Shown piece after piece: positions 4,072-21,132 of a stretch of DNA of 39,913 bases. The notes below the pieces were generated by a model. That model saw only the letters and a program-made list of their open reading frames with translations, was not told the DNA's origin and made no database searches. Each line of letters starts with the position of its first letter. Within the stretch, counting starts at the first letter, position 1. The position numbers and the translations under genes are program-made. Source of the stretch: a virus. The DNA is taken from the IMG/VR virus record IMGVR_UViG_3300032236_000910, positions 1 to 39,913 of that record, one strand, 5' to 3'.

Positions 4072-4238
4072 TTTTGCTTCTTGAGGCTTGCCAAACCGCC
4101 AGAATGTTTACCTGTATTCTTTACAGGCGTAGACGATCCTTTGGCTTTCAATGATGTGCCATCAAGCTTTGCACCCATTGCTAGGCGTGCGTGATAGCGC
4201 ACATCTTCACCCATTTGCTCTTTATCAGATGTTCCCAT
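4068..4238 (-). CDS. Small basic protein, 56 aa
   Basis: The ATG at 4238 lies inside the last codons of the portal gene (14-bp overlap), preceded by AAGGAGTACC. The product starts MGTSDKEQMGEDVRYHARLA and has a Lys/Gly/Ser-rich C-terminus, ending GGLASLKKQK. Its TGA overlaps the next ATG. It is unrecognised. Tight coupling on both sides supports that it is translated, and the context suggests a head accessory protein. Confidence 0.6.
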   Translation of the reverse strand: MGTSDKEQMGEDVRYHARLAMGAKLDGTSLKAKGSSTPVKNTGKHSGGLASLKKQK

Positions 4239-6690
4239 TTGGTACTCCTTGAGGTTGTGACTCCATTTCTGGTGCCGGTTGTTGTGCAGGCGCCTCTAAA
4301 GGCATCTGCGCTTGAGCATTAACGACATGTTGAATCGTTTGGTGCGTCAACTTTGCATTCTCAATCTCAACTTTTGTCTGATTATTGAGCTGCGTTTTTT
4401 GTAGATCAGCCTGCATCTTGGCCTGCGCTATATGCATGTCAGCCTGATCTTTTTGAGTCTTACGCTGTGTCTCAGCCATGCTAGTGTCTTTAACCACTTG
4501 TGCGTCAGGCGGCAATGGAGGAGGCGTGTTCTGTTTCTGTTTCGCCATATCGATAAGCTTCTGTATCGCCGGCATGAACTGACCAAACACTTCGTTCGTA
4601 TCGATCATTACATGACCACCAATAGCTGCGTATAGCTTGTCTACTTCTGGCGTGTACTTAGGATCATCGTAATCCTCAATAGGTTTGCCCATTGCCTGCT
4701 CAACGTAGCCATTCGACCGGTTCAGATACCACAGCGTCATGTGCTGCTTCAAATGCTCAATCAAGTTGTTCAAATAATTAGGATCAGCAAATGGCGACTG
4801 ACCCAAGAACGGGCTCATCGCAAACTGCAAATGATCTTGAATATGAGCAATATGATCTTGCTGGATATACGCATATGAAGGCTGACCAATCAACATCGCA
4901 GCATTTTCATCCGCAGAGGTGCGCTGTTCAGGTGACGGAGTATCTTTCAATACCTCATTAATGTTTGGCACTTTCATCTGTTTCAGAACGCGCTCAAGAA
5001 CTTTGTTGATCTTGAATTCTTGTGGGTGCTTTTCAGCCAAAGACAACATAGCTTGATTCTGAGCCATGCGCTGAGTCTCAGAGAAAATATGCGGATCAGA
5101 TACCGGCGTTACATCCGTGTTCCGAGCAAAGTCTTCACGAGTGATATCCAGATCAGTCACCATGTCCGACTTCTGCATATCGTCAAAGTGCCAACGATTC
5201 AATCGGCAGAGAATCTTCAGTACGCGCTTTTGCGACTCGTGCAAACGTGCATGGATTGATGAGTAGACTTGTGCGCCTTGCTCAATCAGAGCCTGCGTAG
5301 TGCCCACAGGAGCGTTCGCAGTGACATCGGCAATCTTCTCTTCAGCCGTGGTCAGCACCGACCTTGTGGCCTTATCTAAGAAGCCTAAGAGCTCAAACAA
5401 CACTTGGCTAGGTGGATTGAACGGCATAGGCATAGCAATCTGCCTGATGTCCTGTACACCCGGTGCGCCTTCGATTTCAACGATCTGAGTGACATCAACC
5501 TGCTGGCTCTGACCACTAATCTTCGCGCCCTTCAACTTCAGCATAGTCGCTGCGTTGTTGATGTGAGCGGAGTCGAGTAGGGCACGTAAGCTACCTGTCA
5601 ATGCAGCCGACAGGCCGCCGATCAACTGTGGCAGGCCGATAGCATATGCGCCGCGCCATGGAATGAACTTAAACTCGACGACCCAATCCAGCTTGGTCAT
5701 GGTTTTGTCGGACTCTTCCCAGTTCCTGTACAAGCCGACGACCTCATTGTCTAGCTCGTCGATCATCAGGATGTAAGGTGCGCTCTTGCCCTTAGTCTTT
5801 TCGTCATCCTCAATCTCAAGCCACGTATAGATGTGATACACCTTACGCAGGCCGTCTTTGTTGTCTTCGTACTGCTTACCTTCGATCTTATTGTTGGCCT
5901 TTTGAACCTTATTCTCTTCCAAGGATTCAGTTGCCTTCATGTAGCTGATATCGCGGTACATGCCAGATTGCATGCGGCGCTCAAACTCATACGTCGTAAT
6001 CTCATGCACTTCAGCCGCACGTTGCGCTGTATAGAAGTTGGTTGCCGCGAACGGCAGGATAACGCGATCAATCGGCAGGAATTCTACGCATGGTCGCTTC
6101 TTGTCCTCATCGAACCATAGCTTGAAGTATTGCGAGCCACCCATAGGCAACTGAGTCATCAATACTTCTTGCTCGTCACGGAACTCTTCGATCTGTTCGG
6201 TGATCTGCCAGTTCAGGAAGTTAACCTTGCGTTCTGCTACCGCAGACTTGGCATCATCCTGCTTACCAATAATCTTAGACTTAACAGGGCCGTCAGGTGG
6301 ATACATCTCTTTGATTGCACGAGCAGCAAAGTCAACGCAGCCTTCTGCCATAGCAGGGTGGACTACCTTCGACGCGCCCATGAACGTAGCGCCACCGGGA
6401 GCATCGTTGCCCATGCCGGTACGCTTAATGCCCTCTTCATATTGTTTGTCGCGCAGCTCACGCGCTTGCTTGTCGCTCTCCAGCAAATCAAGGTAACGGA
6501 ACGTCAGATCAGATAACACGCTCTCGCTAACACTGTCAGCCAAGTTGTCGTAGAACTCAGGATTAAACTCAGGGCCATCATCCATGTCAATGATTGCCGA
6601 TCCATCTGGCTGCTCTTCAACGTCCATCTCTGCCATATCTACAATGGCAGAGCCGTCTTCTAGTTCATCAATGTTGATGTCATCCATCAT
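4225..6690 (-). CDS. Portal protein
   Basis: This 821-aa protein is probably the dodecameric head-vertex ring through which DNA is packaged. Its size is at the long end, as in P22-like and other short-tailed phages. Order in the protein: an acidic N-terminus with two DGSA repeats (residues 12-19 and 29-36), a large mixed core (about 45-620), and a Gln-rich helical C-terminus (about 700-790, with KQNTPPPLPPDAQVVKDTSM before it) typical of a portal barrel. TAEEKIADVTANAPVGTTQA (about 447-466) is a portal-like segment. It lies upstream of scaffold and capsid genes. The start overlaps the previous stop as ATGA. Confidence 0.85.
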   Translation of the reverse strand: MMDDINIDELEDGSAIVDMAEMDVEEQPDGSAIIDMDDGPEFNPEFYDNLADSVSESVLSDLTFRYLDLLESDKQARELRDKQYEEGIKRTGMGNDAPGGATFMGASKVVHPAMAEGCVDFAARAIKEMYPPDGPVKSKIIGKQDDAKSAVAERKVNFLNWQITEQIEEFRDEQEVLMTQLPMGGSQYFKLWFDEDKKRPCVEFLPIDRVILPFAATNFYTAQRAAEVHEITTYEFERRMQSGMYRDISYMKATESLEENKVQKANNKIEGKQYEDNKDGLRKVYHIYTWLEIEDDEKTKGKSAPYILMIDELDNEVVGLYRNWEESDKTMTKLDWVVEFKFIPWRGAYAIGLPQLIGGLSAALTGSLRALLDSAHINNAATMLKLKGAKISGQSQQVDVTQIVEIEGAPGVQDIRQIAMPMPFNPPSQVLFELLGFLDKATRSVLTTAEEKIADVTANAPVGTTQALIEQGAQVYSSIHARLHESQKRVLKILCRLNRWHFDDMQKSDMVTDLDITREDFARNTDVTPVSDPHIFSETQRMAQNQAMLSLAEKHPQEFKINKVLERVLKQMKVPNINEVLKDTPSPEQRTSADENAAMLIGQPSYAYIQQDHIAHIQDHLQFAMSPFLGQSPFADPNYLNNLIEHLKQHMTLWYLNRSNGYVEQAMGKPIEDYDDPKYTPEVDKLYAAIGGHVMIDTNEVFGQFMPAIQKLIDMAKQKQNTPPPLPPDAQVVKDTSMAETQRKTQKDQADMHIAQAKMQADLQKTQLNNQTKVEIENAKLTHQTIQHVVNAQAQMPLEAPAQQPAPEMESQPQGVPNGNI

Positions 6691-11083: not shown

Positions 11084-11106
11084 AGTAATTCAATTACTCG
11101 ACCCTA
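11084..11106 (-). repeat. Palindromic repeat copy 1
   Basis: The core AGTAATT-C-AATTACT (11084-11098, plus strand) is a 7+1+7 palindrome. On the minus strand these 23 bases match 15778-15800 (plus strand) at 22 of 23 positions. The copy begins with the TAG stop codon of the large terminase gene. A third copy of the palindrome lies at 24424-24440. Confidence 0.7.
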
Positions 11107-12537
11107 CGCAGAGTAGGGGTTCTCTCTACCACGGTTATTGTAAATCTCGGCGTCGCTTATGTCTTCCTGCTCAATCTCGTCCCGAGGTGGCGCATCGATG
11201 CTGATCCAGCCGGCGTCACGCAGGTAGCGAAGGCCTTGGCTGATGCAGTCAACGAACTCGTCGTGATCAGTGCCCTCGGGGAAGCTGCAGATCTGGCTGA
11301 CCATGCCCTCTGCCCAATCCCTCACATATCCTTTGTTGACGCTGGACTCCGGCACCCACACGCGACCGGCTTTGATGATGTTGGCGACAATCGACAGGCG
11401 CTGGATCTTGTCAGCCCTGCCGGGGTTGTAAGCATGCACCGGGATATGGGCACGCTGCAGGTCTTGAATCAGGCTGATGCCGGCTGACTTGTCTTCCACC
11501 AGCACGAGGTCAACCAACTTGCGGTCGCGTCCCTCGCCGTACACCACCTCGTACTCTTCGATTACTTTGGGGCGCAGGTCAGGGTACTGCAGGTGATCCT
11601 GCCAGCAGTCCAGTATCAACACGCTCATGCCGCCGTCCATCGGCTTGTAGACGCCGAGAGTGATCGAGCCTGTCGGATCATTGTAGGTCTTGTCCGACGT
11701 CGCGCAGTCGTAGCTCTGGATGATGTACTCGAACTTGGGGAAGGCCTTGCCATTGGGCCAGAGACGGAACCAATCGCGCTTGACGATACCACCTGCCTCG
11801 GGGTCAATCAGCTCGGCGTGGATCTCTTGCTGGCCCAGCTTGGTGCCCTCGTATTGCAGGATCTGCTTCTGAAAGCTTTTGGCTAAGTTAGCCACGTTCA
11901 CGTAGGTCGAAGCTTTGGTCACCACCACGTCGTCACCGTCGCGGCTAATTAGATCCATGATTAATGGCTTCGGCTTTGGGGTGGTGGATACGATGATGCG
12001 CGTGCGCTTACCTAAACGCACCGCGAACTGGATCATGTCCCAGCTATCTTGCAGGTAGTCCCACGCAGCCAGCTCGTCGCACCAGCCACCGTGCCATTGA
12101 CCACCACGGAAGCGCTCGGGCTCACTAGCAGGGATGCCCTTAATAAATGAGCCATTGATTAGCTTCAGCTCGTGCAGGCTCTTGTTATAGTCAGCGATAA
12201 GCTCTTTGGGCACCACGTTAAGCAGGCCGCTATCGCCCTCAAAGCAGGTGCCGCGAATGTCGCCGCTTGTCGGAGCGGATACCAGCCAGCGGCTATTAGG
12301 CTCTTCCCACGCCCACGCCAGTAGCGTCTCAGCACTCGCTCGGGTCTTGCCGGCGCCACGGCCTGCAAGCATGAGCCAGATAGCCCACTCGGTGCCGGGC
12401 GGCTCGATCTGGTGCTTGTGGGCTTTCTTCAGCCAATTCATCTGCCAATTGACGACGGCCTGCTGTACAGGCGATAGCTTGGCGTACTCTTCTTTGAGGT
12501 ACGGCTCGTCGTCCAGTATGGCAGCGGCTGCGCTCAC
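11104..12537 (-). CDS. terL: Terminase large subunit
   Basis: This 477-aa motor packages DNA into the prohead. The ATPase half has a Walker A at LAGRGAGKT (57-65), a Walker B with catalytic acid at GGWCDELAAW (150-159), and a coupling motif IIVSTTPKPK (181-190). The nuclease half has the expected acidic residues: YDCAT (Asp277), LVEDKSAG (Glu348/Asp349) and TDHDEFVD (Asp424, Asp426, Asp430). The length is normal for the family. The start overlaps the small-subunit stop as ATGA. The gene is visibly richer in G+C than the tail genes of this window. Confidence 0.95.
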   Translation of the reverse strand: MSAAAAILDDEPYLKEEYAKLSPVQQAVVNWQMNWLKKAHKHQIEPPGTEWAIWLMLAGRGAGKTRASAETLLAWAWEEPNSRWLVSAPTSGDIRGTCFEGDSGLLNVVPKELIADYNKSLHELKLINGSFIKGIPASEPERFRGGQWHGGWCDELAAWDYLQDSWDMIQFAVRLGKRTRIIVSTTPKPKPLIMDLISRDGDDVVVTKASTYVNVANLAKSFQKQILQYEGTKLGQQEIHAELIDPEAGGIVKRDWFRLWPNGKAFPKFEYIIQSYDCATSDKTYNDPTGSITLGVYKPMDGGMSVLILDCWQDHLQYPDLRPKVIEEYEVVYGEGRDRKLVDLVLVEDKSAGISLIQDLQRAHIPVHAYNPGRADKIQRLSIVANIIKAGRVWVPESSVNKGYVRDWAEGMVSQICSFPEGTDHDEFVDCISQGLRYLRDAGWISIDAPPRDEIEQEDISDAEIYNNRGRENPYSA

Positions 12538-18778: not shown

Positions 18779-18993
18779 ATAATCTCAATAACAGAATTTA
18801 CTCTGTCAATATTCATGGTGCCAATACATTCAATATTCCAATCCTTTCCATTCGGGTCTTGCTGAGTCCATGATGGGACTTGTATCCATACTTCCTTGCA
18901 TAGATATTCTTTTTTATCGTCGAATACGCGCCACTTGTGGTCTACGGTTCCACGCTCACCAGCTCGGGTGTTGTATCTGATTCTGAACTTCAT
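18775..18993 (-). CDS. Hypothetical beta-rich protein, 72 aa
   Basis: The product starts MKFRIRYNTRAGERGTVDHK and looks like a small beta-sheet protein (WRVFDDKKEYLCKEVWIQVP). The ATG overlaps the oxygenase stop, so the two are coupled. The stop is part of promoter C. No family is recognised. Confidence 0.6.
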   Translation of the reverse strand: MKFRIRYNTRAGERGTVDHKWRVFDDKKEYLCKEVWIQVPSWTQQDPNGKDWNIECIGTMNIDRVNSVIEII

Positions 18994-19619
18994 ATGATTT
19001 CTACCTCTGGCTCTGCAGCCTGCGGAGCTGGCGCCACCGATATGTTCATGTGAACGAACTTCATCGGCTTCTCGCTGTTTAGATTCCGGCTAAAGCTATG
19101 CGGTAGCCAGCTCGGCGTGAAAATAATTACGCCTTCTTTAGGACTAAACACGCCCAATGGGGATGCAGGAGTCATCTTGTCTTCATCAGCCTGCGGCAGA
19201 TTAATTATTACCTTCGCAGCTCGTGGGTCGTACACCACCAGCTTGCAGGCCTTGTCAGGGACTTCCAAAAAATAGAACGCACTGATCTGCGCTCCAGCGC
19301 CATGGATATGCTGCTCCATGCTGCTCTGAAAGTTGTGTTCCTGCGTCCACATCTCCGTAAAGTAGGTCACCAGCCTGTCCATCGCGTAGCCCTGCGAGGC
19401 CAAGATATTCCATGCCGTCTGAGATACGTACTGCGCAAACTCCAACGCCTGCGGCTCGTTCGAGAAGTCATGCGTCATCACCGTCATTTTCTTCCCATGA
19501 CAGTCTTTTGAAACCTCTAGGTATTTGTCCGACACAGCCCGAATGGGCTCAAGAAATTCTGTTTTCTCGACAGCGTAGATGGTGGTTGCGAAGTAATTGA
19601 TTTCTTCCAGTTGATCCAT
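18990..19619 (-). CDS. 2-oxoglutarate/Fe(II)-dependent oxygenase
   Basis: This 209-aa protein probably hydroxylates a protein or a small substrate using iron, oxygen and 2-oxoglutarate. The C-terminal half fits the putative 2OG-Fe(II) oxygenase group common in phages. MEQHIHGAGAQISAFYFLEV (101-120) carries the first metal-side histidines (His104/His106). LVVYDPRAA follows, and GVIIFTPSWLPHSFSRNLNS (163-182) carries the distal His174. An Arg or Lys after it should bind 2-oxoglutarate, and FVHMNIS is the closing strand. It has its own promoter (D) and GGAGGCATC before the ATG. The substrate is unknown. Confidence 0.75.
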   Translation of the reverse strand: MDQLEEINYFATTIYAVEKTEFLEPIRAVSDKYLEVSKDCHGKKMTVMTHDFSNEPQALEFAQYVSQTAWNILASQGYAMDRLVTYFTEMWTQEHNFQSSMEQHIHGAGAQISAFYFLEVPDKACKLVVYDPRAAKVIINLPQADEDKMTPASPLGVFSPKEGVIIFTPSWLPHSFSRNLNSEKPMKFVHMNISVAPAPQAAEPEVEII

Positions 19620-19643
19620 GATGCCTCCGTGATTGATCGTAAG

Positions 19644-19661
19644 AGTCTAACACGGGATTAG
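19644..19661 (-). promoter_or_regulatory. Early promoter D
   Basis: The leftward core reads CTAATCCCGTGTTAGACT. CTAA and TTAG form an inverted repeat with a 7-base gap, as at promoter E. The -10 is TAGACT with TG one base before it. It lies 25 bases before the oxygenase start, so the leader is very short. Confidence 0.6.
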
Positions 19662-19956
19662 GGTCTGGCTCGGGGATTTTGGGGGGACTTACCCCGCCTT
19701 ATTTTATTTTCACCCAAAGACCCCCCTACCCCACGAGAGAGTAGAGAGGGAAGGTGCTTCACCCCACAAGAGTGGATCGTCATGCTACGGATTGATTACC
19801 GTATGCCCCTCGGCTTGACGATGCGACCAGCCGCACGGATTATTAAGGATCTGCCCCCGCTCACAAACTTCGTGGCTTACCGTGTACTCTTTTCTTCCGC
19901 GCCCTCGAGTGTGAAGTCTTTCTATCGTGCGGAGTACGGGTAGGCAGAAAGCAAAA
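19662..19956. other. Non-coding stretch with inverted repeats
   Basis: No convincing gene is seen. Short frames here are Arg/Ser-rich without acidic residues, as expected of untranslated sequence. Visible structure: G6 at 19681-19686 against C6 at 19721-19726, and a nested element with outer arms ATCGTCA/TGACGAT (19776-19782 and 19816-19822) around TACGG/CCGTA (19786-19790 and 19799-19803). The next block, 19953-20095, continues the pattern. A replication origin or regulatory RNA would fit, but neither is shown. Confidence 0.5.
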
Positions 19957-20052
19957 AACCCTTATGGGAACGAGCTTTAGGCTTGGTTGCCGCATACGAG
20001 TCTGCACTGACAGATTTTCGCAGCTTTGACGAAGCCCGCTCCCATAAGGGTT
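19953..20052 (-). ncRNA. Structured RNA or long-loop terminator
   Basis: In leftward RNA the arms 20034-20052 and 19957-19975 pair over 19 bp. Two of the pairs are G-U, and the same positions would be A-C mismatches if the other strand were transcribed. Six T (19953-19958, partly inside the stem) follow. The 58-nt loop can form a further GCTGC/GCGGC stem enclosing TCTG/CAGA. It ends the replication operon and could be an intrinsic terminator, a small stable RNA, or both. Confidence 0.55.
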
Positions 20053-20074
20053 CGGATGTCGTTTCAGTGAACTA

Positions 20075-20095
20075 CGACGGGTTACCAAGCCGTCG
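20075..20095. repeat. Perfect 6-bp hairpin upstream of the structured RNA
   Basis: CGACGG and CCGTCG flank a 9-base loop (GTTACCAAG on the plus strand). It lies 25 bases after the stop of the primase-like gene and 22 bases before the 19-bp stem, within the same leftward transcript. Confidence 0.5.
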
Positions 20096-20119
20096 ATATG
20101 CGTATTCTACTGCAAACTA

Positions 20120-20977
20120 CTATACAGGTGTCAATACACCCATAAGCTTCCTTACCACCGCAAACAGGCCATGTTTGTGATGCAGGTCATTAGCGTCAAA
20201 TCCCTCTTCATCAGCCATCACCCAAGGGCATCCTGTGGCCTCTGCAGCCTTGGCGCCTGTGCCGCTTGCGTCGTTATCCGCAAAGATCATTACCTTGCCG
20301 GGTATCTGGCCTGCCACCGCCGTCAGGTTCCCAGCACTAAAGCAAACCACCACCGAGGCCTGCATACCGCAGCTTCTGAGCGCGTGATAAACGCTCAGGC
20401 CTGTTGCATACCCCTCGACCAGCCAAGTCTCACCAGCGTCCTTTACGCCCATCCTAAAGACCGCATTCTTAGCTCTCATGCCTGTCAGCATCTTCTTTAC
20501 ATACTTGCGCTCGTCGCTGTCCCAAATAATCTGCTGATAGCCCTGCAGCTTATTGGTCGCCACGTTACGCATTGGGATCAGTAGGACGTCATCCAACACA
20601 AACCCCTTCTCAGCGCCAAACCCCTTAGCCCTCAGATAAGGGTGCTCTTCAAGCTTGGCACTACGCAGGATCATGTCAGCCTTCAATGCTGTCTGCTCAT
20701 ACCTGTGCTGCTGCTCAGATTGCTGAGATTGGCGTTTAGCAGCCCACTGGCGCTTTTCCTCGTATGTCCAAGGCTTGGCATTAGGATCGCTGTACCAAAC
20801 GACCCTAGCCTCGCCTGACCAGTTCATGACCCATCCCCGCTGACCATCCCAAAAGTAGGCGCCATTGTCTGAGCGTGGCTTCTCAGTAGTCCCGCACCGC
20901 TTGATCCGATCAGACGGACTCAGCTTGTTGTAGTCGATCTCCACGCCATGGCTGCGTGCAAAGTCTATAAATGTCAT
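20120..20977 (-). CDS. Toprim-domain protein, probable primase
   Basis: This 285-aa protein has a Toprim signature: WLVEGYATGLSVYHAL (185-200, Glu188) and KVMIFADNDASGTG (228-241, Asp234 and Asp236). The N-terminal part resembles the front domain of phage primase-like proteins (FIDFARSHGVEID, then GAYFWDGQRGWVMNWS), but no four-Cys zinc site is seen. No helicase domain is attached. A separate SF2 helicase lies in the same operon. It probably makes primers for phage replication. The start overlaps the previous TGA as ATGA. Confidence 0.8.
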   Translation of the reverse strand: MTFIDFARSHGVEIDYNKLSPSDRIKRCGTTEKPRSDNGAYFWDGQRGWVMNWSGEARVVWYSDPNAKPWTYEEKRQWAAKRQSQQSEQQHRYEQTALKADMILRSAKLEEHPYLRAKGFGAEKGFVLDDVLLIPMRNVATNKLQGYQQIIWDSDERKYVKKMLTGMRAKNAVFRMGVKDAGETWLVEGYATGLSVYHALRSCGMQASVVVCFSAGNLTAVAGQIPGKVMIFADNDASGTGAKAAEATGCPWVMADEEGFDANDLHHKHGLFAVVRKLMGVLTPV

Positions 20978-21132
20978 GCGCCTTCACCCCAGTAAAGTTC
21001 TAGCCAATCGTCGTATGCCGCCCAGCATAGCAGCCAGCCCCACATTAAATCTTCGTTCTTGGATACATCGCAGTAATATTGAGCCATACGTAAGCAAGTA
21101 TTCTGCGATGGTGGTGGAGATTTATAAGCCAT
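20974..21132 (-). CDS. Small Trp-rich protein, 52 aa
   Basis: The frame runs from ATG at 21132 to TGA at 20974-20976, with both ends overlapping neighbours. The product starts MAYKSPPPSQNTCLRMAQYY and has MWGWLLCWAAYDDWLELYWG, which contains six Trp. This amphipathic segment could touch a membrane or a protein groove. It is coupled to the primase gene. The function is unknown. Confidence 0.55.
   Translation of the reverse strand: MAYKSPPPSQNTCLRMAQYYCDVSKNEDLMWGWLLCWAAYDDWLELYWGEGA

Follow-up and report, generated by a model that had tools for sequence, protein, structure and literature searches.

The evidence supports a conserved leftward RNA that is driven by its own predicted promoter, folds with two pseudoknots, and carries an intrinsic terminator at its 3' end. 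The source DNA is IMG/VR virus record IMGVR_UViG_3300032236_000910, and the whole record of 39,913 nt is the window analyzed here (Table 1). The element lies 3' of the primase gene, between a replication block (primase, HTH regulator, helicase, and ParB-like protein, all leftward) and a second leftward block that includes the TerL and portal genes. Based on its relatives and on comparisons with viral contigs, 85,000 GTDB genomes, 50,697 named phage records, and Rfam 15, we judge that it represents a new family of phage-encoded structured RNA, absent from Rfam 15. By analogy with the lambda pR'-6S RNA-tR' unit, it may well work in most of these phages as a leader or attenuator of the late operon, a reading to which we assign a probability of roughly 0.55.

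Table 1. Features of the window that bear on the element (strand as in the record)
Feature	Positions	Strand	Basis or remark
Portal gene	4225-6690	-	Block left of element
TerL gene	11104-12537	-	Block left of element
2OG-Fe(II) oxygenase gene	18990-19619	-	Next leftward gene, 333 nt past element
Conserved noncoding 3' region (type i)	19715-19942	-	Conservation in relatives
U6 run, predicted intrinsic terminator T1	19953-19958	-	Six A on + strand
Predicted RNA (class A element), ~145 nt, from near P1 to U run	19953-20097	-	Covariance model and covariation
P2 closing stem, 22 pairs, 20053-20032 with 19977-19956	19956-20053	-	Folding and relatives
Pseudoknot 1, 3' strand ACCAAG, inside long stem	19982-19987	-	Relatives
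P3 inner hairpin, 20022-20018 with 19999-19995 and 20014-20011 with 20004-20001	19995-20022	-	Covariation
Pseudoknot 2, 3' strand UCAGUG in P3 apical loop	20005-20010	-	Relatives
Pseudoknot 2, 5' strand CACUGA in P1-P2 linker, partner 20010-20005	20064-20069	-	Relatives
P1 5' hairpin, stem 20095-20090 with 20080-20075, loop CUUGGUAAC	20075-20095	-	Covariation
Pseudoknot 1, 5' strand CUUGGU in P1 loop, partner 19987-19982	20084-20089	-	Relatives
Sigma-70-type promoter, TTGACA (20134-20129), 19-nt spacer, TAGAAT (20109-20104)	20104-20134	-	11/12 match
Primase gene	20120-20977	-	Replication block right of element

A predicted pseudoknotted RNA closed by its terminator stem

The covariance model R1, built from 64 members that include the window, scored the window at 156.7 bits (E 1e-35) on the minus strand versus 18.2 bits on the plus strand. 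R1 was used to align 83 copies, in which 96.4% of cells pair and double-sided changes occur at 29 of 37 pairs (662 cells), numbers that lean upward since the alignment was fitted to the structure and the members are related. None of 500 shuffles equaled this pairing signal, and sliding the partner by one column reduced pairing to ∼50%. The P1 hairpin had double changes at all 6 of its pairs, with 98.8% of cells paired, and P3 had them at 9 of 9. A conserved reading frame is unlikely, as the elements show no constraint on length and in 56% of them every sense frame is interrupted by stops.

About 45 nt 5' of the stem belong to the two-pseudoknot structure, which we evaluated by exchanging partners between members, a test that is free of any alignment. 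Pseudoknot 2 forms at least 5 Watson-Crick pairs in 86 of 88 distinct members, using 55 different sequences, versus only 38% when partners were exchanged; its alignment columns show double changes at 6 of 6 pairs. Pseudoknot 1 of class A, the sequence class to which the window belongs, is little variable: where neither letter is missing, its four core pairs are 100% paired, and one of these changes from U-A to C-G in some members; the two outer pairs are frequently lacking. When single divergent loci were considered, pseudoknot 1 was nominally significant in L003, L017, and L019 and not in L006 and L018. Pseudoknot 1 helices of 7 and 9 bp were also recorded.

A sequence-only reading of this DNA had proposed a 19-bp stem that is whole in leftward RNA by virtue of two G-U pairs (A-C in rightward RNA) and that ends at six T. 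The stem is real and was understated in length, being an unbroken helix of 22 bp with three pairs more. Both internal G-U pairs were located (20039.19970 and 20036.19973, A.C if the RNA were rightward), and the six T were found where expected, as six A on the plus strand; this U run overlaps the end of P2, and some of its U pair within the stem. At the two positions, the 83 relatives have G-U in 60 and 53 copies and G-C in 17 and 30, so both sites nearly always pair in leftward RNA. Across the same relatives, the three helix segments of P2 are 97% paired, with double changes at 14 of the 22 counted pairs. A lack of compensatory changes in relatives had been named beforehand as grounds for refuting the RNA, and their presence argues in its favor. 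The extent first given to the element took in the stem and left outside it the 5' third, with the promoter, the 5' hairpin, and both pseudoknot partners.

The inverted repeat behind the stem (arms 19957-19977 and 20032-20052) is the sole one of its kind within positions 19500-21000. Leftward folding of 19950-20056 yielded -52.1 kcal/mol (z -7.5, with 0 of 200 shuffles as good), versus -41.9 kcal/mol (z -4.4) for rightward folding. By sequence, the arrangement is that of an intrinsic terminator, a G+C-containing stem that passes directly into a U run; here it comprises 22 bp and U6, and the T run is kept 3' of the stem in nearly all relatives.

Relatives in viral contigs

Using the window's primase as bait, we recovered 19 related viral loci. 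Downstream of the primase gene and on its strand, every one (19/19) has a long stem that leads into a T run, with differing sequences. Two sequence classes, A and B, are prominent among the relatives. The class A core reads GGCUUYGUCAAAGC ... GCGGCAACCAAGCCUAAAGC; an exact 20-mer from it matched 82 viral-contig stretches, and a looser pattern yielded at least 119 matches. Class A members were collected by pattern, which may exaggerate the invariance of the patterned bases. Together, the class A patterns produced 115 distinct sequences, 4 of which are chance matches from cellular genomes, leaving more than 100 distinct copies of the element in viral contigs. In the 85,000 GTDB genomes, the looser pattern matched 4 times, each without P1, stem, or model score, and we take these matches as chance. 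The element therefore appears to be essentially confined to viral contigs in the collections searched.

Class B occupies the same site in sister phages and resembles class A in architecture and not in sequence. Its core, GUUAAGUCAGAYUCCGACCCC ... CACCGGGGUYUGUCUUAAC, was found in 34 stretches. A direct upstream-by-junction test of its pseudoknot 1 identified a helix of at least 7 Watson-Crick pairs in 28 of 28 members, versus a mean of 5.0 with exchanged partners. We considered and rejected placing class B in the same sequence family as class A, given that the class A model is weak or silent there (L014, 23.9 bits, E 0.004).

No Rfam 15 family matched the element or the window at its gathering score, and the best hit at the element in a permissive scan was PYLIS_3 (17.6 bits, E 0.34) on the wrong strand. 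BLAST searches with three class A elements and one class B element found no match in the 50,697 named phage records, and the open-licence papers searched contain no description of the element.

Two further kinds of repeat were observed near these loci. In L002, L003, L005, L008, L009, L014, and L020, intergenic inverted repeats (CCAACACGCAUGGGGA ... UCCCCAGCCGUGUUGG) with differing inner sequence lie 3' of the primase gene, in multiple copies in some loci. L033, L069, L091, and L118 contain a further promoter, a 5' hairpin (loop UUGGCGG), and a long terminator stem with inner CCGCCAAC, as if a third RNA of like architecture were present elsewhere in those genomes.

Promoter and transcription unit

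The predicted promoter, whose -35 box overlaps the 3' end of the primase gene, is the window's only match of at least 11/12; a scan that ends at 18-nt spacers misses it. Upstream regions of class A scored at least 10/12 in 62% of cases versus 2% in shuffles. Many match perfectly, with spacers that are often 18 to 19 nt long. In 53 of 88 members, 8 nt separate the end of a TANNNT box from P1, and in most others this distance is 5 to 9 nt. Because the promoter keeps this fixed distance, the predicted transcript runs from P1 to the U run, ∼145 nt. The sequence-only reading had suggested a small leftward RNA that supplies its own terminator, and the fixed-distance promoter, the strand-specific covariation, and the U run all fit such an RNA.

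Lambda-type late leaders have a regulator binding site between -35 and -10. The promoter spacers here are long, and strong inverted repeats occur in 19% of them versus 2% in shuffles; the repeat is weak in the window. These repeats differ among promoters (such as those of L014, L034, L055, and L135), for example ACACGTC ATGA GACGTGT, a pattern that would suit promoters with individual operators.

Conserved region beyond the terminator

In most loci, a further conserved noncoding region of 220 to 400 nt, belonging to one of several types, lies directly 3' of the U run. Identical types trail class A and class B elements, and no specific coupling was seen. The window's region, type i, is kept in relatives; it has no Rfam match and its folding energy is ordinary (z -0.6), so the case for its RNA nature rests on the relatives. 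The 3' region of L006 is of another type, the Rfam family RF02932, Betaproteobacteria-1 RNA (94.7 bits), reportedly defined in an NAR paper. Downstream modules in L006, AP1, MW202545, and others, not including the window, reach at least 49.4 bits for RF02932, which lies directly 3' of the element and on its strand in several relatives. Acidovorax phage AP1 (L138, OM049504.1, 11856-11979) carries this RNA immediately 3' of its primase gene and lacks the 5' element. AP1 is a cultured phage, and its copy sits in an unannotated gap.

One reading of this adjacency is that T1 is no working terminator and that the element is the 5' domain of a single ornate RNA of ∼400 nt that runs on into the 3' region. 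Most loci do have the two side by side, and past the U run comes a short conserved linker that often reads GCUUUNUGCC. The modules are nevertheless separable: AP1 has the 3' domain without the element, a coding frame stands between the two in L114, and coding sequence follows the element in L072. The same 3' type is also found behind both classes, and termination is favored by the strict retention of a U run behind a near-perfect stem. We therefore consider a single long RNA improbable.

No promoter was found in the ∼15 to 20 nt from the U run to the 3' region, and good promoters are rare 180 to 400 nt past T1. An impression by eye that second terminators commonly follow the 3' region did not hold, as they were found in just 7 of 132 cases. 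From these observations, transcription of the 3' region and the genes after it would depend on read-through of T1 or on a start further upstream. The alternative suggestion of the sequence-only reading, a terminator with a controllable structured loop, gains indirect support from this conserved region and late operon, which lie beyond the U run with no intervening promoter. The small RNA and the controllable terminator both fit the evidence, and both may hold.

A 53-codon frame (window 19783-19944, plus strand) runs antisense to the conserved 3' region; comparable frames in relatives may simply mirror RNA conservation. A tRNA-like insert was observed in a stem of one 3' region (L062:3327-3442, minus strand; GUGAUUGAUGAUGG ... 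CCAUCAUCAAUCAC), scoring 33.7 bits for the Rfam tRNA family and uncalled by ARAGORN, with similar inserts in L061, L076, and L128.

Position in phage genomes

Each of 41 long contigs contains exactly one element, of class A in 31 and class B in 10, and none has both. TerL, found in 24 of these contigs, is on the element's strand in all 24 and downstream of it in 21. Of 31 contigs with a portal gene, 30 have it downstream on the element's strand, with circular wrap counted in a few. Most genes of such phages share one strand, and the same-strand signal is therefore partly expected. Counting against a late-leader reading are the three contigs with TerL before the element and the one exception for the portal gene, G028, in which it lies on the opposite strand. 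The positional data thus place the element at the early/late gene boundary in most of these phages, though not in every one. In L171, a terminase-like gene upstream of the element has a LAGLIDADG-like domain, possibly an intein.

Immediate neighbors are diverse, with 81 neighbor pairs over 139 loci. In most loci other than those found through the primase, the upstream gene is not primase, and in some it is on the opposite strand. This bears on the simplest explanation, that the stem is an ordinary intrinsic terminator of the primase operon with a long loop of no further function. Terminators between operons are common, and in the window and the 19 primase-found loci this one does follow primase on the same strand. 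An ordinary terminator needs neither a 5' promoter nor two covarying pseudoknots nor an invariant core; the covariation of both pseudoknots already contradicts it, and we regard it as very improbable.

The main rival to the leader model is a trans-acting structured small RNA, of which T1 would simply be the 3' end. Such an RNA would bind a protein or host machinery, and the early/late boundary would merely be a convenient site for an autonomous RNA gene. Its own promoter and terminator, the conserved core, the varied immediate neighbors, and at least one contig (G028) with late genes on the other strand are all as this rival would have them. It leaves unexplained the promoterless conserved region right beyond T1 and the near-constant place upstream of late genes, and an unpaired antisense seed, as an Hfq-dependent small RNA would have, is unlikely since nearly all variable stretches of the element are paired. 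We consider a trans-acting role possible, if on the unlikely side.

Proposed role

We infer that T1 acts conditionally and that the unit serves as a leader of the late operon. Sequence evidence supports the first steps: a strong host-type promoter would start a leftward transcript at P1, the RNA would fold into P1, P2, and P3, with the two pseudoknots locking the fold, and P2 and the U run would form T1 and end an RNA of ∼145 nt. Under the leader model, this RNA would be made early or constantly. Polymerase would pass T1 only once the terminator was overcome by a phage factor, a host factor, or the RNA's own fold, and read-through would then produce the late mRNA along with the second RNA domain. 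The factor or RNA polymerase would recognize the pseudoknotted core, the conserved part, and the freed short RNA may also act by itself. Counting against a conditional T1, a stem of 22 bp with U6 would not open easily. In terms of biological effect, the element probably helps to time or tune expression of the virion-building gene block.

A more specific proposal is an RNA timer that works without Q, in which a two-pseudoknot sensor with the terminator as its closing helix would form a swappable module (classes A and B) and would gate the second RNA domain and the late operon via a ligand, a factor, or RNA polymerase. We put this forward tentatively and think it rather unlikely as a whole.

For phages such as these, whose contigs gave no recognized Q gene, a late-operon leader offers a testable answer to how late transcription is switched on. 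The element marks the early/late junction in a large group of uncultured phages, and it is an RNA absent from Rfam with more than 100 distinct viral sequences, one copy per long contig, and very strong covariation. The 55 different paired sequences of pseudoknot 2 make compensatory-mutation tests easy to design.

Comparison with known systems

Like GOLLD, ROOL, and similar large phage-associated RNAs (PMC12286853), the element is structured and linked to phages, and tRNA genes or tRNA-like inserts occur near some of its loci. It differs from them in being far smaller, and neither the window nor 20 related loci had an Rfam match to such RNAs. RF02932 corresponds to the downstream module and not to the element, and is present without it in AP1.

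The HK022 put RNA is ∼70 nt long, has two stem-loops, and acts on terminators further on (PMC9378689). Shared with put are a structured phage RNA from just after the promoter and a proposed effect on termination (PMC9378689). The element differs in being a two-pseudoknot RNA of ∼145 nt that contains its terminator, and its architecture is not that of put; their sequences were compared by the Rfam scan alone. Antitermination by RNA only, acting through RNA polymerase as for put, is a possible mechanism for read-through of T1, though the architecture differs.

The closest likeness is to the late leaders of lambda and Stx phages. In lambda, RNA polymerase reads through the terminator once Q has been loaded at the late promoter (PMC6606751), and in Stx phages, a short late-leader transcript is processed to a regulatory RNA, StxS (PMC7873438). 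Shared with these leaders are a strong host promoter heading the late operon, a short transcript with an intrinsic terminator, and late genes beyond. Specifically, the strong promoter is on the same strand as the late operon that it heads, with one portal exception in 31, and where lambda-type leaders have a terminator ∼150 to 200 nt after the promoter and before the late genes, the U run here lies ∼145 nt past the predicted start. Among the 41 contigs, the lambda Q family PF06530 was found in none and PF03589 exceeded its cut-off in none; we therefore name no antitermination factor, and the likeness we propose is one of layout rather than of membership. Unlike the lambda and Stx leaders, the element is pseudoknotted, its terminator stem is its own closing helix, and a second conserved region lies past T1. 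A layout in which the closing helix serves as the terminator, between exchangeable upstream and downstream modules, would be new among phage leader RNAs.
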